31,305 nucleotides of DNA from a virus. A program made the position numbers and the translations under genes. Every line of letters starts with the position of its first letter. Position 1 is the first letter of the stretch. Under the pieces are notes generated by a model, which had not been told where the DNA came from, did no database searches, and worked only from the letters and a program-made list of their open reading frames with translations. The DNA is taken from the IMG/VR virus record IMGVR_UViG_3300025138_013593, positions 1 to 31,305 of that record; one strand, written 5' to 3'. Below, in pieces: positions 1,746-24,963 of the stretch.

Positions 1746-1933
1746 GACTGGTGACGTCCTCCTCGCGGCGCAAGGGTGCGCTCGCACACGTCATCGAAAG
1801 GGAAGGGGCCGGGAAAGCCCTTGTCGAAGCTGGCGAGCCGGCGGCGCACAGTGGATTGCAAAGCGTCATCCGTCGGCAAGTGACGCGCGGCACGCCGCTC
1901 GGCATGATCGCAGGCGATGATCGAGCCAATCAC
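1742..1933 (-). CDS. Hypothetical early protein (63 aa)
   Basis: The frame opens with GTG at 1933, overlapping the TGA of the YdaS-like gene (GTGA), and ends with a TGA overlapping the next ATG (ATGA). This double overlap is the best evidence that it is translated. The protein is basic (ERRAARHL, TVRRRLASFDKG), with no membrane segment and no family I recognise. An alternative frame over the same bases (start at 1929) lacks these overlaps and is rejected. Confidence 0.55.
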   Translation of the reverse strand: MIGSIIACDHAERRAARHLPTDDALQSTVRRRLASFDKGFPGPFPFDDVCERTLAPRGGRHQS

Positions 1934-2199
1934 GATGCAGCCTCCGCGATCGGGAGAACAGCCTGCGGGGCCGGGGCGTCTTCACGCGGGTAGAGATCGG
2001 GGCGAAGGTCGTGGCGCGACACTCCTGTTGCGGCCTCGATCTTCAGGACGAATTCGGCCGAAGCTCGATGCGCCTTGTGGAGCATCTTCCAGACCGAAGC
2101 CTGAGCGACACCGATCTGACGCGCCAGCTCGGACTGCGATCCCGCGATCCGCACCGCTTCGTTCAGCGAATCAAGTTCAAGAGGATTACGTATTCCCAT
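1930..2199 (-). CDS. YdaS/Cro-like HTH regulator, first gene of the early operon
   Basis: The 89-aa product (MGIRNPLELDSLNEAVRIAG...) has a Cro/YdaS-type helix-turn-helix at about residues 20-45 (SQSELARQIGVAQASVWKML), followed by FVLKIEAATGVSRHDLRPDLYP, the usual C-terminal signature of YdaS-like proteins. Such proteins act as the anti-repressor, Cro or Cox-type partner of the lysogeny repressor encoded divergently. The ATG at 2199 lies 6 nt after a TATATA -10 box, so the upstream in-frame GTG at 2214 would not be in the transcript; I therefore choose 2199. Transcription is expected to be shut off by repressor binding to the palindrome over the -10. Confidence 0.85.
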   Translation of the reverse strand: MGIRNPLELDSLNEAVRIAGSQSELARQIGVAQASVWKMLHKAHRASAEFVLKIEAATGVSRHDLRPDLYPREDAPAPQAVLPIAEAAS

Positions 2200-2200
2200 G

Positions 2201-2215
2201 GGTGTTATATACACC
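2201..2215. promoter_or_regulatory. Operator palindrome over the early -10 box
   Basis: GGTGT-TATAT-ACACC is an inverted repeat with 5-bp arms and an AT-rich centre. It lies between the divergent YdaS-like and repressor genes and covers the -10 box of the early promoter, the expected place for a lysogeny repressor site. A second weaker dyad, AACC-TTT-GGTT, is at 2259-2269. Binding itself is inferred. Confidence 0.6.
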
Positions 2216-2233
2216 GAAAGGAATAAGGGTCAA
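2206..2233 (-). promoter_or_regulatory. Early promoter (TTGACC / TATATA)
   Basis: On the minus strand a TTGACC -35 (2228-2233) and a TATATA -10 (2206-2211) are separated by 16 bp. Only six bases separate the -10 from the ATG of the YdaS-like gene, so the transcript would begin at or beside the start codon. No equally clear promoter is visible for the repressor on the plus strand. Confidence 0.65.
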
Positions 2234-2283
2234 CGCCAAAAATAGCAGCGACGGGCAAAACCTTTGGTTGTAGACCTCATTCT

Positions 2284-2922
2284 GTGATTATCGCTGACCG
2301 ACTTAATGAGCGGACCGAGGCTGAGGGGATTTCCCAGAACGAGCTGGCTCGTCGGGTAGGGACCTCTCAGGCGACGATCTGGAAATTAGCGAACGGGCAT
2401 AATGCCAGTTCGAAGTTCATCTTTAAGATCGCTCGCGTGCTTAATACGACACCGGACTATCTTTTAGGGGAAACGGACGATCCTCATTCTGCGCATGATG
2501 TCGATCGAGTAAGCGACGCGATAGAAGTTCCCATGATCGATCTCGCCTATGGCATGGGCGGTACGTATTTGGATGATGAACCCGAGGTCAAGACGGAAGC
2601 ATTCCCGCTCGCGTTCATCCGGCGGTACACCGCGGCGAAGGCTGATAAGCTCGTGTTCGCGGAAGGTATCGGTGACAGCATGGCACCGACAATTCAGACG
2701 ACCGACCTTCTGCTGATCGACCAAAGCGACCAAACACTGCGCCTGTCGGACCAGATCTGGGCGTTCAGCTATGGCGGTGTGGGCATGGTTAAGCGTCTGC
2801 GACCACGTCCGGACGGCAGCGTCGCGATCCTGTCGGACAATCCTAATGTGCCTGAAGATCGGGCGGTCGACGACGAGCTGCACCTGATAGGGCGGGTCGT
2901 GGCGAAAGTGAGCAAACTTTGA
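2284..2922 (+). CDS. Lysogeny repressor, HTH + S24 peptidase fold
   Basis: This 212-aa CI-type repressor has an XRE helix-turn-helix at residues 17-40 (ISQNELARRVGTSQATIWKL) and a C-terminal S24/LexA-like domain. The catalytic serine is S132 in GDSMAPTI and the lysine is K170 in GMVKRL. It should bind the 2201-2215 operator and maintain lysogeny, while being the first gene of the plus-strand lysogenic operon. Translation starts at GTG 2284. The usual Ala-Gly or Cys-Gly self-cleavage pair before the peptidase domain is not obvious (the linker reads LAYGMGG at 87-93), so RecA-stimulated autocleavage cannot be assumed. The next gene follows after 21 bp. Confidence 0.92.
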   Translation: MIIADRLNERTEAEGISQNELARRVGTSQATIWKLANGHNASSKFIFKIARVLNTTPDYLLGETDDPHSAHDVDRVSDAIEVPMIDLAYGMGGTYLDDEPEVKTEAFPLAFIRRYTAAKADKLVFAEGIGDSMAPTIQTTDLLLIDQSDQTLRLSDQIWAFSYGGVGMVKRLRPRPDGSVAILSDNPNVPEDRAVDDELHLIGRVVAKVSKL

Positions 2923-2943
2923 TCGCAGGGAAGGGACGCAACC

Positions 2944-3330
2944 GTGGCTGAAGCAGCACATCCGTTTCAATCGAGGAAATTCGTTGGAAGCCCCACGGAA
3001 ATCGGGACCTCGGCCGATCGCTACCAGGCGTTCCTGATGCCGGGCGAAAAGGTTGTGATGGAATACAAGGGCCTGCGCGATGCCGCAGTCTTTACCGATC
3101 GCCGGTTAATGGTGATCGATCCGCAAGGCCTGCGGGGCAGGAAAGTGAGCGTGAGCAGCTTTCCATGGAAATCGATCACCGCATTCTCGCTCGAGAATAG
3201 CGGGACTTTCGATCTGGATGCCGAGATGAAGATCTGCGGGTCGGGCTGGGGGGTTTGCGAGCTGGAGTTTACCAGAGGCGTAGACGTCTCGGAGATTGCG
3301 GCTTTCGTGAACGAACGCATTTTCGATTGA
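2944..3330 (+). CDS. PH-domain protein (bPH/YvbH-like)
   Basis: This 128-aa protein resembles bacterial pleckstrin-homology domain proteins: AFLMPGEKVVMEYKGLRD, AAVFTDRRLMVID, then the SSFPWKSITAFSLEN strand and an alternating beta pattern, closing with a helix (VSEIAAFVNERIF). Translation starts at GTG 2944. It sits between the repressor and the Ltp-repeat protein in the same orientation and is probably co-transcribed in the lysogen. Bacterial PH domains of this type are soluble oligomers or membrane-associated; the role here is unknown. Position suggests a lysogenic-conversion gene. Confidence 0.75.
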   Translation: MAEAAHPFQSRKFVGSPTEIGTSADRYQAFLMPGEKVVMEYKGLRDAAVFTDRRLMVIDPQGLRGRKVSVSSFPWKSITAFSLENSGTFDLDAEMKICGSGWGVCELEFTRGVDVSEIAAFVNERIFD

Positions 3331-3352
3331 TCTAACAAGGGGGCACAAGAGG

Positions 3353-3994
3353 GTGGCAGGAACGAAACTTTGCCGGGAGTGCGGCACAGCGAACAGCGGC
3401 GATGCAGCGCAGTGTTCAAGTTGCGGGGCGCCGTTTCAACAGGCCGTGGCCGCGGATCCCGAGGTGGGTTCCGGTACGCGCGACCTTGGCGGAAAGATGA
3501 AGAAGGGCTGCCTTTGGATATTTGCGATCTTCATCGGGCTGCTCTTGCTTGGAGCAATTCTGGGCGATCCGGATGAGGGTGAGGAACAGATAGACGCCGA
3601 GGCCCTGATCGACGCTTCCGAACCGGCAACGGATGCGGAAGTGGCCGAAGCAAGCGCTCCCCCGGTGCCGCCGGCACCCATATTGACCGGCCCTCAGCGT
3701 AACGCGGTACGTTCTGCAAAAGCCTATCTCGACATGCAGGGTTTTTCGCGCGAGGGGCTGATCGAGCAGCTGAGCCTAGATGCGGGTGAGGGATACGCGC
3801 GGGCAGATGCAACCGCGGCCGTCGATAGCCTTGACGTGGACTGGAACAGGCAAGCTGCGCGATCGGCGCGAGGCTACCTCGATATGATGGGCTTTTCGTG
3901 CAGCGGGCTGATCGAGCAGCTCAGTTCGAGTTCGGGGGAGCAATACACGCGAGATCAAGCCGCATACGGCGCGCAGCAGGCGGGGGCTTGTTAG
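3353..3994 (+). CDS. Zinc-ribbon, membrane-anchored protein with two Ltp-type repeats
   Basis: The 213-aa product has four parts: a zinc ribbon (C7-x2-C10...C21-x2-C24), a transmembrane helix at about residues 53-70, a Pro/Glu/Ala linker, and two tandem repeats (about 114-159 and 164-208). The repeats share the pattern A.SA..YLDM.GFS..GLIEQLS...GE.Y.R..A. They match the Ltp module (host cell surface-exposed lipoprotein family). In the Streptococcus phage TP-J34, Ltp blocks superinfecting phage DNA injection. Position behind the repressor fits superinfection exclusion, although here a membrane helix replaces the lipoprotein signal and a cytoplasmic zinc ribbon is added. Translation starts at GTG 3353. 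Confidence 0.8.
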   Translation: MAGTKLCRECGTANSGDAAQCSSCGAPFQQAVAADPEVGSGTRDLGGKMKKGCLWIFAIFIGLLLLGAILGDPDEGEEQIDAEALIDASEPATDAEVAEASAPPVPPAPILTGPQRNAVRSAKAYLDMQGFSREGLIEQLSLDAGEGYARADATAAVDSLDVDWNRQAARSARGYLDMMGFSCSGLIEQLSSSSGEQYTRDQAAYGAQQAGAC

Positions 3995-4205
3995 GTTGCC
4001 GGTCTTCACATTTCTTTGCCTCGCAGCGGTCGCGTCAGTGGCGAAGAACCGCAGGTTGAAGGCGGCTGACAACAAGTGAAGTTCGTCGAAGAGGTGCCTG
4101 AGCAAGACTTCTGGCGTGATCCGGTTTGGCCGGACGAAGAAGGCTGAGAGAACATTCCGTAAAGGCCAGATCACGGAATCGGCGGCCGGTTAAGAGGGGG
4201 AAATC
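3995..4205. other. 211-bp gap with no supported gene
   Basis: No convincing gene, promoter or terminator is seen between the Ltp-repeat gene and the next one. Short frames exist on both strands, but none has a ribosome-binding site or recognisable product. The gap separates the repressor-PH-Ltp group from the 119/149-aa/NA37/RelA group, so it could hold a second promoter or mark the join of an inserted cassette. Confidence 0.4.
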
Positions 4206-4565
4206 ATGGAACTTAAACGAATTGGATTCGGCTTGGGATCGATCAGCTTTCATCCGAAAGTTGACGAGGTGCCGGCGTCATCGGCAAGACAAGGCAACGT
4301 CACGATTAATAATGCGGCGAGGCCAGGCACACCCGCCCATTTCATCGTGTCGAACCACATCGCGTGCGATTTCGAGCATGAAGGCGTGGAACAACATGAG
4401 TATATCAATTGGGGCGTCGTAGTTACCGGGTTCGACGGTCACGCCAGGTACGGCGAAGTCGAGAATGCAGCAGCTCGCAAGCTCGCGCCCATGCTTCGGG
4501 CATTGGCTGATGAGATCGAAGAAACCCTGAAAGAGAACGACAGTCAGCCTGAGCCAGGCGAATGA
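4206..4565 (+). CDS. Hypothetical protein (119 aa), start of accessory cassette
   Basis: The ATG at 4206 is preceded by AGAGGGGGAA, a good ribosome-binding site. The protein begins MELKRIGFGLGSISFHPKVD, looks beta-rich in the first 80 residues (GNVTINN, HFIVSNHIACDF, YINWGVVVTG) and ends in an acidic helix (KLAPMLRALADEIEETLKEN). It has no signal peptide or membrane segment. The stop overlaps the next ATG (ATGA), so the two proteins are probably made together. I do not recognise the family. Confidence 0.75.
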   Translation: MELKRIGFGLGSISFHPKVDEVPASSARQGNVTINNAARPGTPAHFIVSNHIACDFEHEGVEQHEYINWGVVVTGFDGHARYGEVENAAARKLAPMLRALADEIEETLKENDSQPEPGE

Positions 4566-5011
4566 GCGACGAACGGCTGAACAGGATCAAGCGATTGATG
4601 GCGGCCAAGCGTGAACGACAAGCGCAGGCGGCGTCCGAGGCTGCGGCGGCCAGCGCCACCAGGCAGTATGCCGCGGCCAATGCGGCGGCGGCATGGTCCG
4701 GCACGCAATCGATGATCCAAAAGGTGCTGGACGATATCAATCTCGAGCTGGACGAGGATGATCCCAAGCTGGTTCTGGAATTCGTGTTGCCGCAATCGGA
4801 CAATCGCCTGGGCGAAGGGTACGTTGGCCTTCGCCGGATCGACGGGCTGACCGATCTGTCCTTCACTGCCTGGAGCAGCGACGGAACGATCAGCATACGC
4901 CTGCCGGACGACGGCCGATCGAGGGAGCACAAGCTTCCGCTGCTCGAGCTGGATAAGGACCAGTGGCGCGAGCTGCTTTACGAGTACATGGAAGCGCGGT
5001 TGAAGGGTTGA
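4562..5011 (+). CDS. Hypothetical protein (149 aa) with Ala-rich coiled coil
   Basis: The product has an N-terminal basic helix (RLNRIKRLMAAKRERQAQAA), an alanine-rich helical region to about residue 45, then an alpha/beta part (LELDEDDPKLVLEFVLPQ... TDLSFTAWSSDGTISIRL...) and a C-terminal helix (WRELLYEYMEARLKG). It is coupled to the previous gene by ATGA, and its stop is 10 bp before the NA37 gene, whose ribosome-binding site (AGGGGG) overlaps that stop. No family is recognised. Tight coupling to the NA37/RelA pair makes it a possible further component of the same cassette. Confidence 0.75.
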   Translation: MSDERLNRIKRLMAAKRERQAQAASEAAAASATRQYAAANAAAAWSGTQSMIQKVLDDINLELDEDDPKLVLEFVLPQSDNRLGEGYVGLRRIDGLTDLSFTAWSSDGTISIRLPDDGRSREHKLPLLELDKDQWRELLYEYMEARLKG

Positions 5012-5021
5012 GGGGGCAAAA

Positions 5022-6074
5022 ATGGCACTAGAAGATCTGCAGATCACGCGTGCGGTCGTACACGAGGTGCACCTGAGGCCGGACGCGAAAACCCGTCTCG
5101 CGCCGACGTACGGGACCGAATTGCTGCCTTTCGATGCGGCTGCTTTGGCCACATTCCGCCAGCGCGTCGCCAAGGCATTCGCAAGTGATTCTCGGTCTGC
5201 GGAGATGTCGATCCGAGATTTCGTTGACGGAACAGTGCCGGCCCTTGTGAATGAGATTTGCCAAGCGTCCGAAGATGATTTCATCGATGGTAGCCGGTTA
5301 ATTGCAGATCGTCTCGCGGACGCCCAAACCTCACGCAATATCCCTGGGGGGCTCTGCGTAGTTTTCGATGGGACGGTCGGTGATCCAGTGCGACGCTTCG
5401 TGGGCGTTATGAAGGCGGAAACGCATTCGGGCTTCCAGAAGGGAGATGATCTGTCAGTCGCCTTTCTGACGGATCTATTTTTGACCCCGCAGGCCAAGCT
5501 CTATAAAATTGGTCTATTCGCAGCTTCCGGAGGAGATGGCTCGCGCTTCCCAGATGATTGGAAGGCTTTGCTCTATGACGACAAAATGTCAGCGGCTCGG
5601 CGGGAAGATGCTGCCACGTACTTTCACGACAGTTTCCTCGGGCTCGAAATACCGCAGGATTCTGCACAGATCACCAAGCGCTTTTTCGAAAGTGTTCGAA
5701 ATTTTGTCGAGCAATCCGATCTGGACCCTCAGTCGAAAGTAGACCTTAACAATGCGCTCTACACCGCGCTAAAAACCGACCAGCGACCTAACCTTCAACC
5801 AACGGAATTCCGGGACAACAACGTTCCAGTGGATCTCCATGATTCTTACGACGCAGCGATGCTAGCTGGCGGTATTCCTGACGGTGCCTTTATCAAAGAC
5901 TTGCGGGAAATATCTTCCCGACTTCGTCTTCGCCGCCTTTCGTTCTCGCATAGCGTCCAAGTGGTCGGTCCGACCGAAGCCATCGCTGACCACGTCAAGA
6001 TCGACACCAAGGACATCGATGGTGAGCGGTGGACGGAGGTTCTCATCCGAGGCACCCTAGAGAAACAGATGTGA
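5022..6074 (+). CDS. NA37 (NdpA/YejK-like) nucleoid-associated protein
   Basis: The 350-aa protein resembles the 37-kDa nucleoid-associated family. It has the short N-terminal TRAVVHEVHL strand, a central FVGVMKAETHSGF... and AKLYKIGLFAASGGDGSRFPDDWKALLYDDKM block (an A..YF...FLG helix follows at 196-207), and a long C-terminal part with paired helices and a beta segment ending TEVLIRGTLE. E. coli YejK binds double-stranded DNA. AGGGGG lies 5 nt before ATG 5022. The gene is clearly lower in GC (about 50% in sampled lines) than the structural genes. Its stop overlaps the GTG of the RelA/SpoT gene, so the two form one translational unit and probably one system. Confidence 0.8.
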   Translation: MALEDLQITRAVVHEVHLRPDAKTRLAPTYGTELLPFDAAALATFRQRVAKAFASDSRSAEMSIRDFVDGTVPALVNEICQASEDDFIDGSRLIADRLADAQTSRNIPGGLCVVFDGTVGDPVRRFVGVMKAETHSGFQKGDDLSVAFLTDLFLTPQAKLYKIGLFAASGGDGSRFPDDWKALLYDDKMSAARREDAATYFHDSFLGLEIPQDSAQITKRFFESVRNFVEQSDLDPQSKVDLNNALYTALKTDQRPNLQPTEFRDNNVPVDLHDSYDAAMLAGGIPDGAFIKDLREISSRLRLRRLSFSHSVQVVGPTEAIADHVKIDTKDIDGERWTEVLIRGTLEKQM

Positions 6075-7057
6075 GCCGCGACGCCGAATTTCTCGAACGT
6101 TGGGAAAGGGAAGAGCCTCGCTATAGTGCGCTTGGCTCGTTCATCGTAAGGTCGGTCATTCAGCGAATATCCGACAAGATCGCGGTGCCGCCAGAGATCT
6201 TCTTCAAGATAGCCCCCGGCTATCGTACCAAGGAGGCCAACTCACTCCTCGAAAAAGCCTTCTATCGAAACAAGAACTACCCCAACCCGTTCGAAGACAT
6301 CACCGACAAAGTCGGGGCCCGCTTCGTGCCGCTTCTAGGAAGCCAAATCGGGTTAATCGAGAAGGCCCTTCAATCTATCCCGGAGCTGGCTTTCAGGCTC
6401 GACCGGGATTATCAAGAGGAACAAAAGCAGAAACCGGTGGAATTTGATTATGCCGCAAAACACTACGTCGTGTGGCCGCAATCTGATCTGCAGGTAGATG
6501 GCGTAACAGTTTCCGCTGGCACTCCTTGTGAGGTACAGATCAAGAATGTCCTGCAACATGCCTATAGCGAAATGTCGCACGACACGATCTACAAATCGCA
6601 AGTCGGTCGTACGCCAGAGATGCTGCGAAACGCGGCGAAGGCCATGGCGCTTCTCGAGGCCACAAATGACTATTTCGAGAAGGTGGATACGCAAGTTTCT
6701 CAAGCGCTCGAAAGCGTGCGATCAATGACAGCAAAGCTGTCCGATCTTTATCGAGAACTTGTTCGGATATCCCCGCAGCCTTCCCAGCTGGAAGGTATCT
6801 TACTCGATGTATACGAGAATTCCGCGCCGCCGAAATTCGAAGAAGAAATTCGGGATATGTTTCGGGCTAAGGGATGGCTTACTGATCGGATCCGCGAGCG
6901 GGTAGGCCAGCGAAACCCTATCTTTCGACAACCCTCAGTGCTGTTAGTCTACCTGGACATCTACAAACGGCGGGCGCGTGCAAAATATGACTGGCCGTTG
7001 ACACCCGATGAGATGGAGCCGCTGCTCAACGATTTTGGTGAAACCGCTCAGAACTAG
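6071..7057 (+). CDS. RelA/SpoT-domain nucleotide synthetase (SAS/toxSAS-like)
   Basis: Starting at GTG 6071, which overlaps the NA37 stop (GTGA), the frame gives 328 residues. The synthetase motifs are present: DITDKVGARF (76-85, metal-binding Asp probably D79), a Tyr near 132 replacing the usual GY.S.H segment (AKHYVVW), and CEVQIKNVLQHAYSEMSHDT followed by IYK (153-175; E154 expected catalytic). There is no HD hydrolase domain. About 150 helical residues follow the synthetase. Related enzymes make (p)ppGpp or (pp)pApp or pyrophosphorylate tRNA, and some are toxins or phage-triggered defence effectors. GC is about 47-52%. The stop overlaps the convergent ogr stop. Confidence 0.88.
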   Translation: MSRDAEFLERWEREEPRYSALGSFIVRSVIQRISDKIAVPPEIFFKIAPGYRTKEANSLLEKAFYRNKNYPNPFEDITDKVGARFVPLLGSQIGLIEKALQSIPELAFRLDRDYQEEQKQKPVEFDYAAKHYVVWPQSDLQVDGVTVSAGTPCEVQIKNVLQHAYSEMSHDTIYKSQVGRTPEMLRNAAKAMALLEATNDYFEKVDTQVSQALESVRSMTAKLSDLYRELVRISPQPSQLEGILLDVYENSAPPKFEEEIRDMFRAKGWLTDRIRERVGQRNPIFRQPSVLLVYLDIYKRRARAKYDWPLTPDEMEPLLNDFGETAQN

Positions 7058-7374
7058 GTATTCGCTGGGTCCGGGAGCTCACCCGCCCCGCCAGTCCTCC
7101 CTGTTACCCGATCATTGTCGTTGCCTGCACTTCGCCTAGGCGGCGCTACCGGTAGTTCGACAGAATGATCGGGGCAGGCGCTTTGGGAAATCGTGTGCGT
7201 GATCGAAAGCGCGCTGGCGAAGGTGTGGCCGCAATCGAGGTTGCTGCACTGGTGATAGAGTTCGCGATAGAGCCGCGTTACCTGGCGGCTCGTTCGTACG
7301 GGTGCTGACTGTCCGCAGTGGGGGCAGTCGATGCTCGCGCTGGATTTGCGCGGAGCCTTGGTCTTCGGATGCAT
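7054..7374 (-). CDS. ogr: Ogr/Delta-type late gene activator
   Basis: The 106-aa product has the Ogr/Delta zinc finger with exact spacing, C17-x2-C20-x22-C43-x4-C48, and the internal TSRQVTRLYRELYHQCSN signature, followed by ALSITHTIS and a Pro/Asp-rich tail. In P2 and relatives Ogr binds a dyad near -55 of late promoters and recruits RNA polymerase. Three matching dyads occur in this window. ATG 7374 is chosen to fit the usual short N-terminus; ATG 7395 and ATG 7464 are in-frame alternatives. It is the last gene of the tail operon, as in P2, and its stop overlaps the convergent RelA/SpoT gene by 4 bp. Confidence 0.9.
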   Translation of the reverse strand: MHPKTKAPRKSSASIDCPHCGQSAPVRTSRQVTRLYRELYHQCSNLDCGHTFASALSITHTISQSACPDHSVELPVAPPRRSAGNDNDRVTGRTGGAGELPDPANT

Positions 7375-7494
7375 CGGTGTTCGACCCTGTTCCATAGACG
7401 CCGCGCCTTCCCCGCGCGCCGCGCCTGTCACCTCCCGAGAGCCATGTTCCGCAAATGTTTTCACATGGCAATGCCCAAATATTAGGCAGAACAG

Positions 7495-8550
7495 CTACTT
7501 CGCTTCGAGGGTCAGTTCGGACACGAGGCCACCGGACCCGCTGAGCGTGTGCCGGCATTCGCCGATCAGCCAATCCTGCGCATCGATTTCCGGCTTGAAG
7601 CCTGCGAGCGTCAGTGGCTTTTCGGGAAAGAGTTCGGGCCGGCCGAGCGCCAGATTGATGGAGAACTCTGCCTTGGCGCGGTCCATTTTCCTGCTCGCGC
7701 TGCGGGCGGCGCGGCGGGCGGTTTCCTCGCTGCCGTAGGTCCGCTTGAGACGCTTGGGCGGTTTGTCGCCGCCGGCGCCGATCTCGACAGTCGAGCGCTG
7801 GCCTTTCGCGCGGTCGTGCCACCTTGCCTCCACCCCGCCGAACTGGCCGCGTTCGCCGCGGCGATAGCGGAAGCTGTCGCCATCGCGGCGAGTGATCGTG
7901 CTGGAGCCCAGCGATCGACCGGAAGCGGAGCGGGCTTCGCCGACCGGCATGAATATCAGCTTGCCATCCTTCACCGTAGCCGCTGCATCGAAGCGGCGGC
8001 CGAGGATCCGCAGGAGCGCTGCGTCGGACAGCTCGTCCTGGTCGATGACAGGCAGGTGTTCAGCCGCGAGGTCCGGATCCACGATCGCGGTGAGCGATTG
8101 CGCGGATGCGATCTCGCGGATGATCTCGCCCAGCTTGCGGGCGACATGAGGCTTTTCGCGGCGGCGATCGAAGCTGGCAGCGAAGTCGGCCGAGCGAGCG
8201 CGAATGGTAATGCGATCGGGCGCACCTTCCCATTCGGCCTCGTCGACCTTGAAGCGGCCCTTGTCGACCAGGCCGGGCTCGACATCGGCGCCCCAGGCCC
8301 AGCCCAGCTGCAGCGAGAGGACCTGACCGGCTTGCGGAATCTCGAGCTGGCCGTCGCTGTCATCGAGGACGATGTCGAGACGATCGGCTTCTCCATCGCG
8401 CTTTTCGGTCAAGGTGAGCGAAACGAGGCGCGGAGAGAATTTCTCCATCAGCGCCGCGGCGAATTCGGGTAGGGCGGGGGTTCCCCCTGGGCCGAGCGAC
8501 TTGCCCTCAAGCGTGAGGCGATAGTCGGCGCGGTTCTGCCGATCAGCCAT
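7495..8550 (-). CDS. D: Tail hub / late control protein D
   Basis: The 351-aa protein matches gpD: an N-terminal beta domain (DYRLTLEGKSL..., LVSLTLTEKRDGEADRLDIVLDDSDG), a central IIREIASAQSLTAIVDPDLA stretch with the LLRILGRRFDAAATVKDGKLIFMP fold, and a basic C-terminal region (EETARRAARSASRKMDRAKAEF) ending in DWLIGECRHTLSGSGG. gpD forms the baseplate hub and is related to the VgrG and gp27 hub proteins. It follows U and the 66-aa gene and overlaps the latter by 8 bp. About 100 bp separate it from ogr. Confidence 0.95.
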   Translation of the reverse strand: MADRQNRADYRLTLEGKSLGPGGTPALPEFAAALMEKFSPRLVSLTLTEKRDGEADRLDIVLDDSDGQLEIPQAGQVLSLQLGWAWGADVEPGLVDKGRFKVDEAEWEGAPDRITIRARSADFAASFDRRREKPHVARKLGEIIREIASAQSLTAIVDPDLAAEHLPVIDQDELSDAALLRILGRRFDAAATVKDGKLIFMPVGEARSASGRSLGSSTITRRDGDSFRYRRGERGQFGGVEARWHDRAKGQRSTVEIGAGGDKPPKRLKRTYGSEETARRAARSASRKMDRAKAEFSINLALGRPELFPEKPLTLAGFKPEIDAQDWLIGECRHTLSGSGGLVSELTLEAK

Positions 8551-9119: not shown

Positions 9120-11279
9120 TCAATCTCCGAAGGCCGAGTTCGCGCCGGCACGACGATCGCGCTCGATCGCTTCGAGCTCGCGGCGCACGCGCTGGGCGAG
9201 ATCACCCGCGTCTTCGCCGGGCTGCTGGTAGATCTGGATGGTGACCGGTCCCGATGAGACCGGGGCCGCGGAGGGTCCTAAGCCTGCACCACCGGCATAG
9301 GCCGGCGAGGACAGCGCGGCAGCTCCGGCGACACCGGTTGCGAGACGGCGTGCGCTCGCGAAGGCGTCGCTTCGCTTCCTGTCGATGCCGATCGCCATGC
9401 CTTCGGAGAGATTTCCGCCGAAGCCCATGAAGAGCCGCGAGGGGGAGTTGATCCCGAGCAGCTTCTTCACGTTGGTTACGCCGTTCATGACGATTGACTT
9501 CAACGCATTCCAGACGCGGCCAGGTGCGGATGTGATACCGTTAACCAAACCGCTGATCATACCCTTGCCGATCGACAAAAACTTGTCGCGCAGACCGCCA
9601 AGGAACGCGATGCCAGTGTTGAACGCGGCCTTGATCGTATCCCAGTTCCGGTAGACGGCGACGCCGACGACAGCGAGTACGGTGAGGAAAAGGCCGACCG
9701 GTCCGAGCATGAAGCGGAAAGCGACACCCAGCATCCGCACGCCAGTTGCGAGCTTGGGGAATGTCTCCGCAATCGAGCCGAGCGTCCGGTATTTCTTCCA
9801 TAGCTGATACCCCTTGGAAAGCGGTCCGAGCATGCCGCCGAAGGCGAACTGCAGGCCGCCGAGTGCGACGCGTGCTGCGCCGAAGCCTGCGACGGTCATC
9901 AGGATGGTCTTGGCCAGACCGGGATTCTCCCGTGCCCAGTCGGCGAGCGAGGCCACTAAGGGTGTGATTGCGCCGGTTAAAGCGGTGATCGCCGGGGTCA
10001 GGACGGGTGCAACTTCCAGAAAAAGACCAGCACCAGCGCTTTTGAGCGCGGCCATCTGTTTAGTAATATCGTTCGCCATGCGCTGTTCGAAGGCCTGGTC
10101 GGTTACGCCGTCGGCAGCGGCGATGTCCTTCTTCATCTGCCCGAACTTGTCGTAGTTCTGCATAAGCGCGGTCATCGCCCGGTTGGCTTCCTTGTCGGCG
10201 AAGAACATGCCCAGCTTCTTATCGTCGCCGCCGGTTGCCTGGTTGGTCAGAGCAATCATAGTTTCGAGCGGCGAGATGTTGTTCTCCAAGCCCTTTTCGA
10301 TCGCGCCAAAGGCATCGATGCCCGCCTTCTTGAAGGCGTTCATGGTGGCGGGAGCGGTGAGTTTGGAAAGCAAATCGGAGGACGCGGTGGCTGCTTCGGC
10401 GGACGTGCCCGTGCTGCCACGAACAATCTGAAGCATGGCGACGAGTTCGGCCCCAGCGGACTGCCCTGTCTGGCCGAGCTTCTTCATCTGGGCAGTCAGG
10501 CCTGGCATGGCAGCCGCCATGTCCTTGACTTCGAACGCGCCCTGGTTGCCGCCTTCAGCCATCATGTCGAGGAACTTCTGCGACTGGCTGAGCGGGATAT
10601 TGAGTGTCTCTATACCGGCATACAGCGAGGCTGCGGTGTCGGCACCCTGCGCCTTGAAGGCGGTCATGAAGCGGCCCATCGGCAAAGCAAGCTTGGCGGC
10701 CTGTTGCGGATCCATGCCCAGACCCGCGAGCGATTCCACCGATGCGGCGATTTCATCGGGCATTTGCGCGGACGCGCGCGAAGCATCGATGATGTTGTTG
10801 CGCATTTGCGCGGTCGCAGCGTCGGACAGGTTCGCCTTCTGCTGGATGTCGACCATCTGGCTGGAAAAGTCTGCGCCTGCCTTGGCTGCGACTGCCAAGG
10901 GTGCGAGGAGCGCAGCACCACCAATGGCGTTGGCGCGGCCGCGGCTGCGAAAATCAGCGCCCTTCGCCCGGATAGCCTGAGCTTTCTTGGAGGCTTCGTA
11001 GAGCTTGCCCTGCTTGCGCAGTTCGTCGTTGGCGCCTTCGAGTGAGCGCTCGAGCTGCTTCTCGCGATTTACGAGCTCGGTAATGTTACCGCTCGCGCCG
11101 TCGATCTGCTTTCGAACCTTTTCGAGTTCGCCTTTGAACCCGTCGGCTTCTCTCCTGAGGTTTCGAAAACTGTTCGCGCCGGACTTGCCGAGACCGACGA
11201 GATTCTTGAAGCCCCCCTTCAGTTCAGAAAGCCCCTTTTCGGAGAACTTGACCAGGAGGTTGAGGCTGTTCTTCGACAT
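9120..11279 (-). CDS. T: Tail tape measure protein T
   Basis: This is the longest gene in the window (719 aa). It has an N-terminal coiled coil (about 30-105), a PhageMin_Tail-type region with ALAVAAKAGADFSSQMVDIQ-like and MRNNIIDASRASAQMPDEIA segments (about 120-330), hydrophobic stretches near 450-570 and the typical closing module LISGLVNGI..., GINSPSRLF and GNLSEGMAIGID. The tape measure sets tail length and is ejected at infection. It begins 5 bp after the E' stop, the canonical position behind the frameshifted E/E' gene. The last 50 residues are Pro/Ser then Arg-rich. Confidence 0.95.
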   Translation of the reverse strand: MSKNSLNLLVKFSEKGLSELKGGFKNLVGLGKSGANSFRNLRREADGFKGELEKVRKQIDGASGNITELVNREKQLERSLEGANDELRKQGKLYEASKKAQAIRAKGADFRSRGRANAIGGAALLAPLAVAAKAGADFSSQMVDIQQKANLSDAATAQMRNNIIDASRASAQMPDEIAASVESLAGLGMDPQQAAKLALPMGRFMTAFKAQGADTAASLYAGIETLNIPLSQSQKFLDMMAEGGNQGAFEVKDMAAAMPGLTAQMKKLGQTGQSAGAELVAMLQIVRGSTGTSAEAATASSDLLSKLTAPATMNAFKKAGIDAFGAIEKGLENNISPLETMIALTNQATGGDDKKLGMFFADKEANRAMTALMQNYDKFGQMKKDIAAADGVTDQAFEQRMANDITKQMAALKSAGAGLFLEVAPVLTPAITALTGAITPLVASLADWARENPGLAKTILMTVAGFGAARVALGGLQFAFGGMLGPLSKGYQLWKKYRTLGSIAETFPKLATGVRMLGVAFRFMLGPVGLFLTVLAVVGVAVYRNWDTIKAAFNTGIAFLGGLRDKFLSIGKGMISGLVNGITSAPGRVWNALKSIVMNGVTNVKKLLGINSPSRLFMGFGGNLSEGMAIGIDRKRSDAFASARRLATGVAGAAALSSPAYAGGAGLGPSAAPVSSGPVTIQIYQQPGEDAGDLAQRVRRELEAIERDRRAGANSAFGD

Positions 11280-22012: not shown

Positions 22013-22149
22013 CACGCACCCCCTGCCAGCGGTGAACCGTCGGGCGCGTAGCCATCCCACAGGCGGCGCAGCAGCGCGGCGCGGGTGGCGGCGGGAACCG
22101 GTTGCGGGAATTTGAGGGTGGCGGTATCGGTGCGTTTAGCTTGGGTCAT
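22012..22149 (-). CDS. Small protein (45 aa) diverging from the RHH gene
   Basis: ATG 22149 opens a 45-codon frame (MTQAKRTDTATLKFPQPVPAATRAALLRRLWDGYAPDG...) coupled to the 83-aa gene. A decayed copy of its first 10 codons appears at about 22460-22495 beside the second RHH gene, which supports both the gene start and a local duplication. Function unknown. Confidence 0.55.
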   Translation of the reverse strand: MTQAKRTDTATLKFPQPVPAATRAALLRRLWDGYAPDGSPLAGGA

Positions 22150-22210
22150 CGGATTGTCGCTCCGTGGCTTGAGTTAGGGTGGCAGGGAGGTACGAACTCC
22201 CTTGCCACCC
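22146..22210. repeat. Upstream unit 1 with strong hairpin, before RHH gene 1
   Basis: The segment TCATCGGAT...TGAGTTAGG (22146-22178) is repeated imperfectly at 22492-22523. It runs into a hairpin at 22177-22210 with arms starting GGGTGGCA and ending TGCCACCC, a 7-nt loop and one bulge. No T-tract follows, so it looks more like a leader structure than a terminator. Confidence 0.6.
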
Positions 22211-22236
22211 GAACTTTATGCAGTTACAAACTTCCC

Positions 22237-22416
22237 ATGTCAAGCGTTGATAAAGTTAAAAAGCGCATTGGGCGCCCGCCGGTTGATAGCGAGCAAATAA
22301 CGGTGCGCATCCAGCGACCAATGCTCGACGCTCTCGACGACTGGCGCGAACGGCAAGACGACAAACCCGGTCGGCCCGAGGCGGTGCGCCGCATCCTGAA
22401 GAAAGAAATCGGCTGA
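22237..22416 (+). CDS. Ribbon-helix-helix-like regulator, paralogue 1 (59 aa)
   Basis: The 59-aa protein has a basic arm (KVKKRIGRPP), a beta strand (QITVRIQ), a helix (PMLDALDDWRERQ) and a second helix (RPEAVRRILKKEIG). This fits Arc/CopG-type ribbon-helix-helix DNA-binding proteins. It is about 45-50% identical to the gene 160 bp downstream, sharing the RPEA.RRIL.KE.G ending. It is transcribed against the late operon and is probably autoregulated through the conserved upstream segment. Confidence 0.75.
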   Translation: MSSVDKVKKRIGRPPVDSEQITVRIQRPMLDALDDWRERQDDKPGRPEAVRRILKKEIG

Positions 22417-22491
22417 GGCCGTGACGACACGCCGCGGCAGGATCGGCTTGCAGTATAGAAAGCGGGCGGATATCGGGGTGCCCAGCCTGGA

Positions 22492-22557
22492 TCATCGGAT
22501 GGCACTCCATGGTCTGAGTTAGGCCCCGGGGAGGAAGCGACCACTTCCCCCGGGGCC
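22492..22557. repeat. Upstream unit 2 with strong hairpin, before RHH gene 2
   Basis: TCATCGGAT...TGAGTTAGG (22492-22523) matches unit 1, and is followed by a hairpin at 22522-22557 with arms GGCCCCGGGG.. / ..CCCGGGGCC and a 6-nt loop. The hairpin sequence differs from unit 1 but the position and shape are the same, suggesting structural conservation. Confidence 0.6.
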
Positions 22558-22579
22558 GATTAGTTGATATCAACGCGCG

Positions 22580-22762
22580 ATGAGCAAATCGGAAATTGCG
22601 ACCAAGCCGCGCGGAAGACGCCCCGGCCAATCAGGAACCTTTGTCGGCGTCCGGCTCCAGCCCGGCGCGCTCGAGCCGCTGGACAACTGGCGGAAAGCGG
22701 AGCCGGATCAACCCTCGCGGCCCGAGGCCATCCGCCGCATCCTGAGAAAAGAATTCGGCTGA
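22580..22762 (+). CDS. Ribbon-helix-helix-like regulator, paralogue 2 (60 aa)
   Basis: The product (MSKSEIATKPRGRRPGQSGTFVGVRLQPGALEPLDNWRKAEPDQPSRPEAIRRILRKEFG) keeps the basic arm, strand, two-helix plan of paralogue 1. The strand residues (VGVRLQ versus ITVRIQ) and last helix align without gaps. It is coupled to the membrane protein gene by a TGATG overlap. Divergence in the recognition strand suggests that the two copies may read different sites or form heterodimers. Confidence 0.75.
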   Translation: MSKSEIATKPRGRRPGQSGTFVGVRLQPGALEPLDNWRKAEPDQPSRPEAIRRILRKEFG

Positions 22763-23082
22763 TGTGGGAAGCTGTCGTATTTTCCTGCTGGATCGGAACG
22801 ATATTCGCCCTGATCATTGCCGAGTGGCGGCATTCGGGGATCGACGCGATCGGCAAGTTCGGGGCTCCGATCCTGCTGGTTGCATCCTTGCTCGGCATCG
22901 GGCTGTCGGGCTGGTTCGTAATCGCGATCTTTTGCATGGCAGCGGGCGTGGCCGCGGCCCCGCAGAGTGCCGAACGCAAGGAAGAGATAGCGCGCAGCAA
23001 GCGCGAGATGGCCATTGAGTTGGATCCCGCGACGCGCGCTGAAGAGCTGAATGCCATCGAGGAAGATCAGAGGCAAGGCTGA
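22762..23082 (+). CDS. Two-helix membrane protein coupled to RHH gene 2 (106 aa)
   Basis: ATG 22762 overlaps the RHH stop (TGATG). The protein has two hydrophobic segments (about 5-20 and 35-66, the latter probably containing two passes) and a charged C-terminal tail (KEEIARSKREMAIELDPATRAEELNAIEEDQRQG). No family is recognised. Linked to a small DNA-binding protein, it could be a membrane effector (toxin or exclusion protein) of an accessory cassette; that is inference. Confidence 0.7.
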   Translation: MWEAVVFSCWIGTIFALIIAEWRHSGIDAIGKFGAPILLVASLLGIGLSGWFVIAIFCMAAGVAAAPQSAERKEEIARSKREMAIELDPATRAEELNAIEEDQRQG

Positions 23083-23131
23083 TCGCTGCCGCCCGGCGAC
23101 CGGCAGCTGGACGAGACCGGTTCAACCGCGT

Positions 23132-23620
23132 CTAACGCGACCACGCCGGGTTGTCGTCGAACCATTTGAGCAGTTCTTCGGTCAGCGCGTCCATGTCTTC
23201 GCTGTCGAGGCCCAGGAGCGGGCGGGCCGGGAAATCACCTTCGACCCTCCGCCCTTCCGAATCCCGGCCAACGGTCATCCGACCGCCGCTGTGGTGCCGA
23301 GCGGCGATGGGATTGGCGAAATAGACCTTGGCACTATCGGGCGTGGCGTGGAATTTCAGATGGTCCGCCTTGTAGAGGTTGCGGAACATCAGCCCACTCT
23401 TGATCGAGCGCTTGCCCCTGCGGATCCGGCGCTTGCGTTTACGCGGGGCCATCTTGCCGCCATCGGGTTCGACATTGCGCTTGATCCGATCGCGGTTCCT
23501 GCGGCGCAGCTCGCGCGCGATCTTGCCCGCCACTTTCTTGCGCTTCGCCGGCGAGAGATCGGATAGCATCGCATCGAAATACTCACCGACAGCCTCCATG
23601 GCTTCCACGCCCTCGATCAT
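23132..23620 (-). CDS. S: Tail completion protein S
   Basis: The 162-aa protein matches the gpS/virion morphogenesis family: helical N-terminus (EYFDAMLSDLSPAKRKKVAGKIARELRRRN..RI), an Arg/Lys-rich centre, SGLMFRNL, then YFANPIAARHHSGG and FPARPLLGLDSEDMDAL. It is coupled to R (ATGA). It ends 49 bp from the convergent RHH/membrane cassette. Confidence 0.92.
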   Translation of the reverse strand: MIEGVEAMEAVGEYFDAMLSDLSPAKRKKVAGKIARELRRRNRDRIKRNVEPDGGKMAPRKRKRRIRRGKRSIKSGLMFRNLYKADHLKFHATPDSAKVYFANPIAARHHSGGRMTVGRDSEGRRVEGDFPARPLLGLDSEDMDALTEELLKWFDDNPAWSR

Positions 23621-24093
23621 GAAGCCAGGTCCTCGCCGCTGATCACGAGGCCGGACAGACCAACCGCATCACCGATGCCTTCGAAACTGTCATCGATCGC
23701 CGGTTCGGGCAGATATTCGAACCCGTCTTCGGTCCGGCGCACCGCTTCGCTGAGCTCCAGCGAGAGCTGCAGATCGATGCGTTCGTCATCGATGATGTCC
23801 GCCTGCAGTTCCACCGGACTGCCTTCATGCGACAGCAGGAGTTCGGGCTGATGGATCCGCAGCCAGTCGAGCACGAGCGCGAGCACGGTGTTGGCATCGC
23901 CCTTGAAGTCGAGCAGCACCGCCTCGAGCCGATAGGCCCATTCGAAACTGACGACAGCAGTCGAGGTGCCGGGCGCAGGACGCGCGCGGACGCGGCCATT
24001 CTCGACATAGACGGCGAGCCTGTCGCGCGCGCGGCCGTTGAATTCGGGAAAGGCAGCGGCGAGATGATCGCGGAGGAGTTGGGGCTTGCGCAT
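23617..24093 (-). CDS. R: Tail completion protein R
   Basis: The 158-aa product has the gpR pattern: MRKPQLLRDHLAAAFPEFNGRARDRLAVYVENGRVRA, FEWAYRLEAVLLDFKGDANTVLALVLDWLRIHQPELL and an acidic C-terminal half. It acts with S at the head-tail joint. The AGGA in the 3' arm of the hairpin repeat (24100-24125, minus strand) is 7 nt before its ATG and could be its ribosome-binding site. Confidence 0.93.
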   Translation of the reverse strand: MRKPQLLRDHLAAAFPEFNGRARDRLAVYVENGRVRARPAPGTSTAVVSFEWAYRLEAVLLDFKGDANTVLALVLDWLRIHQPELLLSHEGSPVELQADIIDDERIDLQLSLELSEAVRRTEDGFEYLPEPAIDDSFEGIGDAVGLSGLVISGEDLAS

Positions 24094-24099
24094 TTTTGT

Positions 24100-24125
24100 G
24101 TCCTACCACTTCGTTGCTTGAGGAC
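24100..24125. repeat. Covarying hairpin repeat, X-R junction
   Basis: Arms GTCCT/AGGAC. The inner stem reads AC-TTC-GT instead of GC-TTC-GC, a compensated G-C to A-T change. On the minus strand the 3' arm AGGA lies 7 nt before the R start. Confidence 0.85.
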
Positions 24126-24137
24126 CGGGGGACACAT

Positions 24138-24347
24138 TCAATCCCACAGCTGGACGATGTCGCGGGTTTCGGGTGCGGCGATCGCTACGTCCGGCAGGAC
24201 GACGCGCGTGCCGAGGGGAAGGACCGGACCCAGATCGGCAATGCCGGGATTGGCTGCGACCGCGGCTTCGACAATCCCGGCGGTGCGGCCCAGCTCGCGC
24301 CAGCAGATGAGGTCGAGCGTGTCGCCTTCGATCGAGAGGACGTTCAT
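24138..24347 (-). CDS. X: Tail protein X (LysM-like)
   Basis: The 69-aa protein has the gpX pattern: MNVLSIEGDTLDLICWRELGRTAGIVEAAVAANPGIADLGPVLPLGTRVVLPDV, a single LysM-like module with the G-D-T-L-D-L-I-C-W core. It is needed for tail completion in P2. Its ATG is 2 nt after the AGGACC end of a hairpin repeat. Confidence 0.94.
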   Translation of the reverse strand: MNVLSIEGDTLDLICWRELGRTAGIVEAAVAANPGIADLGPVLPLGTRVVLPDVAIAAPETRDIVQLWD

Positions 24348-24348
24348 G

Positions 24349-24446
24349 GTCCTACCGCTTCGCTGCTTGAGGAGAGCATTTCCGGCCCTACCGCTTGGCT
24401 GCTTGAGGACGGTTTTGCGCGTCCTACCGCTTCGCTGCTTGAGGAC
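24349..24446. repeat. Three tandem covarying hairpins, L-X junction
   Basis: Copies at 24349-24374 (GTCCT/AGGAG, last pair unmatched), 24385-24410 (GCCCT/AGGAC, inner GC-TTG-GC) and 24421-24446 (GTCCT/AGGAC, inner GC-TTC-GC). Spacers are 10 bp each. Confidence 0.85.
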
Positions 24447-24450
24447 GGGG

Positions 24451-24930
24451 TCATATCAGCTCGACCGATGTGCGGGTGACGCCGAGCATGTCGCGTATCG
24501 CGAGGGTGGCCAGGCGGCGCAGTTCGCCGGCCGCATCGCGGCGGGCCTCGTTGCGTTCCTGGCCTTCACCGGTGGCGGCGATATCGGAATGGGTTTCGGC
24601 GAGTTCGGCAGCTGCGGCATGGAAGACCGCGCGGCGGTAGAGCAGCTCGACAGCCGGTTCGCCGTCAATCTCCTCGCTAGCAACCGCACCGAGGGTGGCA
24701 GCGCCCGCCAGGACGTGGCCCGCCTTCCAGAGCCGGAGTTCGCCGCGGACCTGTAGCATCCCGCCACGAAGCGCGGCGCGAAGGCGCGCAGGATCGACTT
24801 CTTCAGGGATGCGCATCTCGGACTGGAAACCCGCGATCGACAGGCCCGGCCAGAAGGCATCGCCCGCGACGAGGTCGGCAGGATCCTCGAGGTCGGGTCC
24901 CGAGGGAGGAGAGGCTACGAAGCCGGTTAT
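24451..24930 (-). CDS. L: Head completion protein L, apparent ATA start
   Basis: The family-like reading frame runs 159 codons from 24930. Its N-terminal residues (TGFVASPPSGPD... GDAFWPGLSIAGFQSEMRI) fit gpL, which normally begins upstream of the GDxFWP motif. No ATG, GTG or TTG occurs in frame between the preceding TAG and residue 39. The codon in the start position is ATA (24928-24930), 5 nt after a perfect AGGAGG. The first ATG (24816) would give 121 aa lacking the conserved N-terminus. gpL closes the filled capsid. Either ATA is used or the start codon has been mutated. Confidence 0.82.
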   Translation of the reverse strand: MTGFVASPPSGPDLEDPADLVAGDAFWPGLSIAGFQSEMRIPEEVDPARLRAALRGGMLQVRGELRLWKAGHVLAGAATLGAVASEEIDGEPAVELLYRRAVFHAAAAELAETHSDIAATGEGQERNEARRDAAGELRRLATLAIRDMLGVTRTSVELI

Positions 24931-24935
24931 ATCAG

Positions 24936-24963
24936 CCTCCTATCGCTACGCTAGTTGAGGAGG
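24936..24963. repeat. Covarying hairpin repeat just before L
   Basis: Arms CCTCCT/AGGAGG, a compensated variant of GTCCT/AGGAC, with inner GC-TAC-GC. On the minus strand the 3' arm AGGAGG is the ribosome-binding site of L, so folding would hide it. A half copy (CCTCCTATCG) follows at 24971-24980. The rest of the gap to 25084 is GC-rich with no supported gene. Confidence 0.8.

Follow-up and report, generated by a model that had tools for sequence, protein, structure and literature searches.

The DNA analysed here spans 31,305 bases of a virus record, and we call it the window. Judged by its gene content (terminase, sheath, gpU/gpD, tape measure and Ogr), it is a P2-like phage of the Peduoviridae type, and because of these P2-like genes its host is predicted to be Gram-negative. 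The window terminase matches 335 phage records, 319 of them over at least 80% of the query. Two stretches, 399-1330 and 22102-24958, received no clear assignment to phage genes. The genes considered here are listed below.

1930..2214, minus strand: YdaS-type HTH protein that marks the left slot edge, in divergent orientation to the repressor
2284..2922, plus strand: HTH + S24 (CI-type) repressor
2944..3330, plus strand: bPH_1-domain gene, between the repressor and the Ltp gene
3353..3994, plus strand: anchored Ltp-domain protein, 213 aa, GTG start (PF07553, 1.2e-29; phrog_15667/phrog_4980)
4206..7057, plus strand: variable cargo, including two orphan ORFs
5022-6074, plus strand: NA37-like gene, cargo
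6029-7057, plus strand: RelA/SpoT-domain protein, cargo (phrog_32462)
7054..7464, minus strand: Ogr/Delta-type activator (Ogr_Delta, 1e-18)
7495..8550, minus strand: gpD-like tail protein (phrog_52); right edge of the slot
9120..11279, minus strand: tape measure protein (phrog_28, 5e-83)

The 213-aa protein matched Pfam family PF07553 (Lipoprotein_Ltp) in two stretches, with 102.6 bits against a cut-off of 23.2 (E = 1.2e-29). Two PHROGs annotated as superinfection exclusion also matched, phrog_15667 over residues 92-213 (4e-46) and phrog_4980 over residues 48-208 (1e-33), such PHROG names being annotations and not tests. NCBIfam yielded no usable family for the protein, PADLOC has no model of it, and a nucleotide search against named phages returned nothing useful. 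Within the gene, the following parts were recognized.

3371..3436, plus strand: zinc-ribbon-like domain, aa 7-28, CxxC-x12-CxxC (Zn_Ribbon_1, 6.8e-5; AlphaFold2 pLDDT ~88)
3497..3559, plus strand: transmembrane (TM) helix, aa 49-69, Lys ahead and net -7 behind (hydropathy, AlphaFold2)
3560..3682, plus strand: acidic/Pro-Ala linker, ~40 residues, low model confidence
3695..3832, plus strand: Ltp repeat 1
3839..3973, plus strand: Ltp repeat 2
3899..3901, plus strand: Cys183, first Cys of the co-conserved pair
3989..3991, plus strand: Cys213, second Cys of the co-conserved pair

The ribbon scored 23.0 bits with Zn_Ribbon_1 against a Pfam cut-off of 25, with the CxxC-x12-CxxC motif present, and the ribbon of a relative (L074) exceeded its cut-off (UPF0547, 33.3 vs 29). 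Hydropathy gave a single hydrophobic helix, the top 19-residue window (KD 2.65) lying at aa 53. An earlier note on this DNA had read the protein as an N-terminal four-Cys ribbon and a transmembrane helix, followed by a pair of Ltp modules, and the two PF07553 stretches, the cysteine motif, the hydropathy and the AlphaFold2 model all bear this out. The arrangement is not due to chance, since sister phages L003/L004 (97%) and L005 (84%) keep all of it. No lipobox was found in the window's protein, which has the ribbon and TM helix instead, and we therefore file it as an Ltp-domain protein rather than an Ltp lipoprotein. Its repeat domain is acidic (net -4, pI 4.59); several signal-peptide relatives are basic instead (pI 8-9).

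An AlphaFold2 model built on 35 aligned sequences (mean pLDDT 82) places the ribbon in residues 1-30 (pLDDT blocks of 85, 92 and 88) and the helix in residues 49-69, with a low-confidence linker and an Ltp pair of six helices at a pLDDT of about 97. The model superimposes on Ltp of Streptococcus thermophilus phage TP-J34 (4eqq_A) with Z 16.1 and an rmsd of 1.5 A over 101 aligned residues at 29% identity. Foldseek matched it to the same fold (E = 2.1e-5), and a profile search of the PDB returned 4eqq as the only sequence relative (1.7e-11). RecX was the second-best structural match of the Ltp pair (Z 8.3, rmsd 2.1, 89 aligned), and the ribbon model overlays RanBP/NZF-type ribbons weakly (Z 2-3). 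Like TP-J34 Ltp, the window's protein has an N-terminal membrane anchor, a flexible spacer and an acidic domain of two helix-turn-helix repeats, and its gene lies in a lysogeny module. TP-J34 Ltp is a lipoprotein, however, whereas the anchor here is a zinc-ribbon-like domain with a TM helix, and the aligned stretch of 4eqq has no Cys pair. Exclusion has been demonstrated for TP-J34, a Gram-positive siphophage, while for the P2-like window phage it is what we propose.

On one strand, 21 nt separate the repressor gene from the bPH_1 gene and 22 nt separate the latter from the Ltp gene. Such spacing makes a single transcript likely, and one is assumed below; no sigma-70-like promoter was found in 2100-4300. 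This same-strand run behind an S24/HTH repressor agrees with the lysogeny-operon position given in the earlier note. The bPH_1 gene has three relatives in viral contigs, all of them in known sister phages, and is therefore not a fixed partner. Elsewhere a HIRAN-domain gene is common between the repressor and the slot protein (7251-7670 in L061, 7285-7734 in L092), and some phages have no gene there. The cargo differs as well: L003 has ORFs without assignment in place of the window's NA37-like and RelA/SpoT genes, and sister L042 carries, beside Ltp, the A and B genes of PADLOC system PD-Lambda-5 (2e-125 and 2e-122).

Homology, charge rule and paired cysteines together indicate that the Ltp repeats very probably face the periplasm, as had been suggested earlier. 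The N-terminal flank of the helix has four K/R and the C-terminal flank none (net -7), which obeys the positive-inside rule and would put the N-terminal side in the cytoplasm and the repeats outside. The ribbon, of a cytoplasmic type, is on the Lys-rich side of the helix. A cleavable signal peptide precedes the Ltp domain in proteins of Pantoea, Serratia, Erwinia, Paraburkholderia and Oceaniradius, and in the four signal-peptide proteins aligned this domain is 69-73% identical to the window's. Lipoboxes precede the domain in L006/L069, L062/L063/L102 and L088. In E. coli, an Asp next to the lipobox Cys holds lipoproteins at the inner membrane; in the lipoprotein version of L062 and L102, an Asp follows the lipobox Cys.

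The two cysteines, which lie in and after repeat 2, were both present in 59 and both absent in 24 of 88 distinct sequences. Among the other five, L075 ends before the second Cys, L128 is a multi-repeat protein that was mis-registered, and L146, L150 and L151 were left unplaced by the script and have neither Cys when read by eye. Both residues were found in all 35 sequences of A2 and in all seven genomes that were found by HMM rather than by pattern. The frequency of the first Cys in the viral-contig search is biased because one of the two search patterns contained it; the second Cys was in neither pattern, and the A3 scan was designed to sample sequences that do not have it. This joint presence or absence of the two residues suggests that they form a disulfide and lie in an oxidising compartment.

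Ltp domains are not confined to Gram-positive phages and also occur in Gram-negative prophages. By tblastn they were detected in 154 of 50,697 phage records, mostly of Gordonia and also of Acinetobacter and Psychrobacter. Plasmid records with a match numbered 34 of 72,556, among them some from Serratia, Pantoea and one cyanobacterium. They are rare in genomes, with 3 of 385 in the class and 5 of 398 in the phylum of the Oceaniradius genome, counts that include this genome itself (G001), which was reached through its Ltp match; leaving it out gives 2 of 384 and 4 of 397. This is a correction to the earlier note, in which the Ltp modules were described from a Gram-positive phage. The Ltp protein of a Picosynechococcus plasmid (NZ_CP016480.1, L032), a case outside phages and Proteobacteria, carries a double zinc ribbon together with a helix.

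The N termini of the Ltp proteins in 66 viral contigs were classed as ribbon-TM (7), SHOCT-TM (1; SHOCT domain 1e-8), one TM (19), at least two TM (10), lipoprotein (8, L048 being uncertain), signal peptide only (16), unclear (2) and cut (3), these classes being hydropathy and motif calls finished by eye without a trained topology predictor. Mapped onto a tree of 51 Ltp pairs, the anchor label has to change 21 times where 5 is the minimum possible; shuffled labels needed a mean of 27.4, and none of 200 shuffles was as low as 21. For the ribbon, a minimum of two changes is already required by the starred branches of the tree. The premise of the earlier note, a single re-anchoring for a Gram-negative host, is therefore too narrow, as there are six kinds of N terminus that have been exchanged many times. 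According to a 2016 paper (PMC5137146), every Ltp-domain protein reported from another species was a lipoprotein with a lipobox. In the openly accessible literature searched, we recognized no paper on zinc-ribbon- or SHOCT-anchored Ltp proteins or on a shuffled slot of this kind.

The order YdaS(-) or its position, repressor(+), zero or one gene, Ltp(+), gpD(-) was found in 22 of the 66 contigs (tblastn, 1e-5), among which L003/L004, L006/L069 and L062/L063/L102 are near copies. YdaS was detected in 21 of these 22, L055 being the exception. Every one of the seven ribbon-TM versions occupies this slot. Moraxellaceae-type phages carry the Ltp gene among their late genes and not in the lysogeny module. 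It was seen there between the sheath and tape measure genes in L048, L079 and L081, and just upstream of the tape measure gene, the proposed target type, in L091 and L097. The Ltp genes of Psychrobacter phage Psymv2 and Acinetobacter phage AbIPP1, which are annotated as 'superinfection exclusion', likewise belong to Gram-negative phages and encode the same Ltp pair, including the Cys pair, behind a single-helix anchor, but they have no ribbon and are placed in the late region, flanked by head-tail connector genes.

Comparisons between close relatives show what is replaced within the slot. L092 and L094 are 92-96% identical in the flanks on both sides, while the block of repressor and anchor is unrelated apart from short patches; similarity returns at the anchor/Ltp junction, with 342 bp at 90.9%. 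Their repressors share 37%, their Ltp pairs 99% and their tape measure proteins 98% at the protein level, and the unrelated anchors are a plain helix in one and a ribbon plus helix in the other. Between the window and L003, the DNA-binding half of the repressor is 31% identical (81 residues), the C-terminal (peptidase) half 99%, the bPH protein 100% and the Ltp protein 99%, and by this comparison the window repressor is chimeric with respect to that of L003. The same Ltp is therefore kept by phages whose repressors differ in the DNA-binding domain and presumably in immunity.

With gpD as bait, we collected 80 loci, 68 of which extend at least 4 kb beyond gpD; Ltp was present in four of these 68 and a repressor in 38. 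All of the repressor-bearing slots except that of L182, where the match abuts gpD, were examined (37 of 38). By our own reading, 17 of the 37 hold an anchored protein with a separate head, and none was seen in the other 20. Counted by locus, the heads were Ltp (4), H2 (6), a PF12869 OB head (3, one of which also has H2), DUF3862/BamE-like (1) and unassigned (4). The H2 head has four invariant cysteines in all six aligned sequences. The loci with other heads are L159, L169, L170, L172, L174, L175, L185, L191, L199, L211, L212, L214 and L233, and their heads are often Cys-paired.

A ribbon-TM anchor is common to L061 (Ltp) and L185 (H2), with 66% identity over 68 aa, and a SHOCT-TM anchor to L057 (Ltp) and L170 (OB), with 59% over 75 aa, as well as to L169 (BamE-like) and L170, with 60% over 78 aa. 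L191 and L233 have a two-TM anchor in common (65% over 60 aa). BLAST found no convincing similarity between heads of different types, the best E-value being 0.02; E-values for heads and anchors were computed without composition correction on a 28-sequence database, and matches that covered no more than the membrane helix (under ~45 aa) were not used as evidence. Judged by these alignments, anchors and heads in the slot are exchanged independently.

In a follow-up scan for H2, the slot order was the same in three of four full-length matches (L235, L236 and L238), and the fourth (L237) ends 600 bases upstream. In the corresponding OB scan, six of eight matches were in the slot, with SHOCT-TM, TM or ribbon-TM (L249) anchors. 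The PF12869 OB head matched phrog_8545, annotated 'superinfection exclusion Sie-like' (E = 4e-27 and 9e-26). It resembles Ltp in occupying the same repressor-linked slot on ribbon-TM, SHOCT-TM or TM anchors, but it belongs to another head family and no sequence similarity to Ltp was found. The model of the H2 head from L185 is a helix bundle with no Foldseek match at E <= 0.001. Its best structural match was to a designed bundle, with a Z of 12.8 that the comparison tool rates as uninformative for helical bundles.

We consider it probable that the window's gene encodes a repressor-linked, inner-membrane superinfection-exclusion protein of a P2-like temperate phage, which would block DNA entry in the periplasm. 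The zinc ribbon and Lys-rich end would be cytoplasmic, one helix would span the inner membrane, and the ~40-residue linker would hold two disulfide-locked Ltp repeats in the periplasm. Co-transcribed with the repressor, the protein would be made in lysogens. Its repeats may bind a part of the injection machinery of an incoming phage, most likely the tape measure protein, and thereby stall DNA entry, so that the lysogen would also be protected against related phages of another immunity type. The slot is a fixed one in P2-like phages, with anchors and heads exchanged independently and Ltp as one of several heads. An entry-exclusion locus appears the best explanation because a membrane-tethered, putatively periplasmic protein lies behind the repressor and beside defence cargo and has exchangeable heads, and because two of these heads, Ltp and OB, independently carry exclusion annotations.

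TP-J34 Ltp is itself encoded in a lysogeny module and blocks DNA injection, a secreted lipid-free form acts on more phages, and two Ltp versions differ in their target phages (PMC3952083, in excerpt). This precedent fits the freedom of anchors and the diversity of heads, since the lipid-free form works and the versions differ in targets. Ltp action has been shown against phages of Gram-positive hosts; its extension to contractile-tailed phages and across a periplasm is our proposal. HK97 gp15 and P22 SieA are, to our knowledge, unrelated in sequence to the window's Ltp protein. They are inner-membrane, prophage-expressed blockers of DNA entry in Gram-negative phages and in this resemble the role proposed for Ltp (PMC10883804, in excerpt).

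The tape measure protein is the most likely candidate target, and its binding is the step we favour. Across 16 slot phages, with L003 and L042 left out as near copies, the correlation between Ltp distance and tape measure distance was weak (r 0.21; p 0.07 by permutation) and gives this step no clear support. The values were r 0.24 (p 0.047) for gpU, r 0.13 (p 0.20) for gpD, r -0.14 (p 0.78) for the repressor and, in 15 phages, r 0.04 for the sheath. A basic C-terminal end was not found in the phage's own tape measure protein, whose last 60 residues have a net charge of -2; residues ~441-660 are basic. This charge decides little, as the true target would be the proteins of other phages.

Such a protein might instead act on its own tape measure protein, as a chaperone of assembly or release or by neutralising released virions. 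In some Moraxellaceae-type phages (L048, L091 and L097) the tape measure gene follows directly downstream of the Ltp gene, and L092 and L094 retain the same Ltp together with the same tape measure protein. In the window family, however, Ltp goes with the repressor and is encoded on the other strand than the tail genes, the protein is predicted to be exported whereas tail assembly is cytoplasmic, and Ltp is lacking in 64 of the 68 contigs that have gpD and a flank of 4 kb or more, all of which makes this reading improbable. An inverted topology, with the ribbon outside and the repeats serving in the cytoplasm as a RecX-like helical module in recombination or induction, would draw on RecX as second-best structural match, but a Z near 8 for a small helical repeat can reflect a common arrangement. 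We rejected it, leaving it only the slightest chance, in view of the signal peptides and lipoboxes that close relatives carry on the same domain, the N-in charge bias and the co-conserved Cys pair.

Lysogenic conversion of the envelope deserves more attention, although we think it unlikely: the repeats would attach to a periplasmic protein of the host, or to a component of its wall, and alter envelope physiology, with no anti-phage role. A periplasmic, disulfide-bearing build suits any envelope role, Ltp domains also occur on plasmids (the 34 records above), and the Ltp domain of pneumococcal CbpL has another role, suggested to lie in interaction with the host (PMC5137146, in excerpt). Against this, the gene adjoins the repressor and defence cargo (PD-Lambda-5 in L042), a second, unrelated head of the slot matches a Sie-like PHROG, and diversified heads and anchors are more typical of a conflict gene.

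If exclusion at DNA entry is the function, a broader reading may be offered, though tentatively when its parts are taken jointly: P2-like prophages of Gram-negatives (GC-rich, probably Alphaproteobacteria) might carry a polymorphic exclusion locus directly behind the repressor. It would encode inner-membrane proteins whose exchangeable anchors would be zinc ribbon-TM, SHOCT-TM, TM, two-TM and lipid, and whose exchangeable heads, all disulfide-locked and periplasmic, would be Ltp, the OB fold, the four-Cys helix bundle and a BamE/DUF3862-like domain. The heads would differ in the phages whose DNA they keep out, and immunity by the repressor would thus diversify together with exclusion at entry, and the cytoplasmic domain of the anchor may tune assembly or placement. 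Exclusion at the entry step is known for a handful of phages, mostly from single genes at a time. A repressor-linked slot with shuffled parts would, if real, be a genome-readable source of Gram-negative entry blockers, and it would place periplasmic entry exclusion under diversifying exchange, as with restriction or repressor specificity. It would also pose a testable question, namely, whether Ltp acts across a periplasm and against contractile-tailed phages, and whether the anchor matters.

The lysogeny cargo of the window offers one further observation. At 5022-7057, the NA37-like nucleoid gene overlaps the RelA/SpoT-domain gene, and the pair could be an uncharacterised defence or toxin module.
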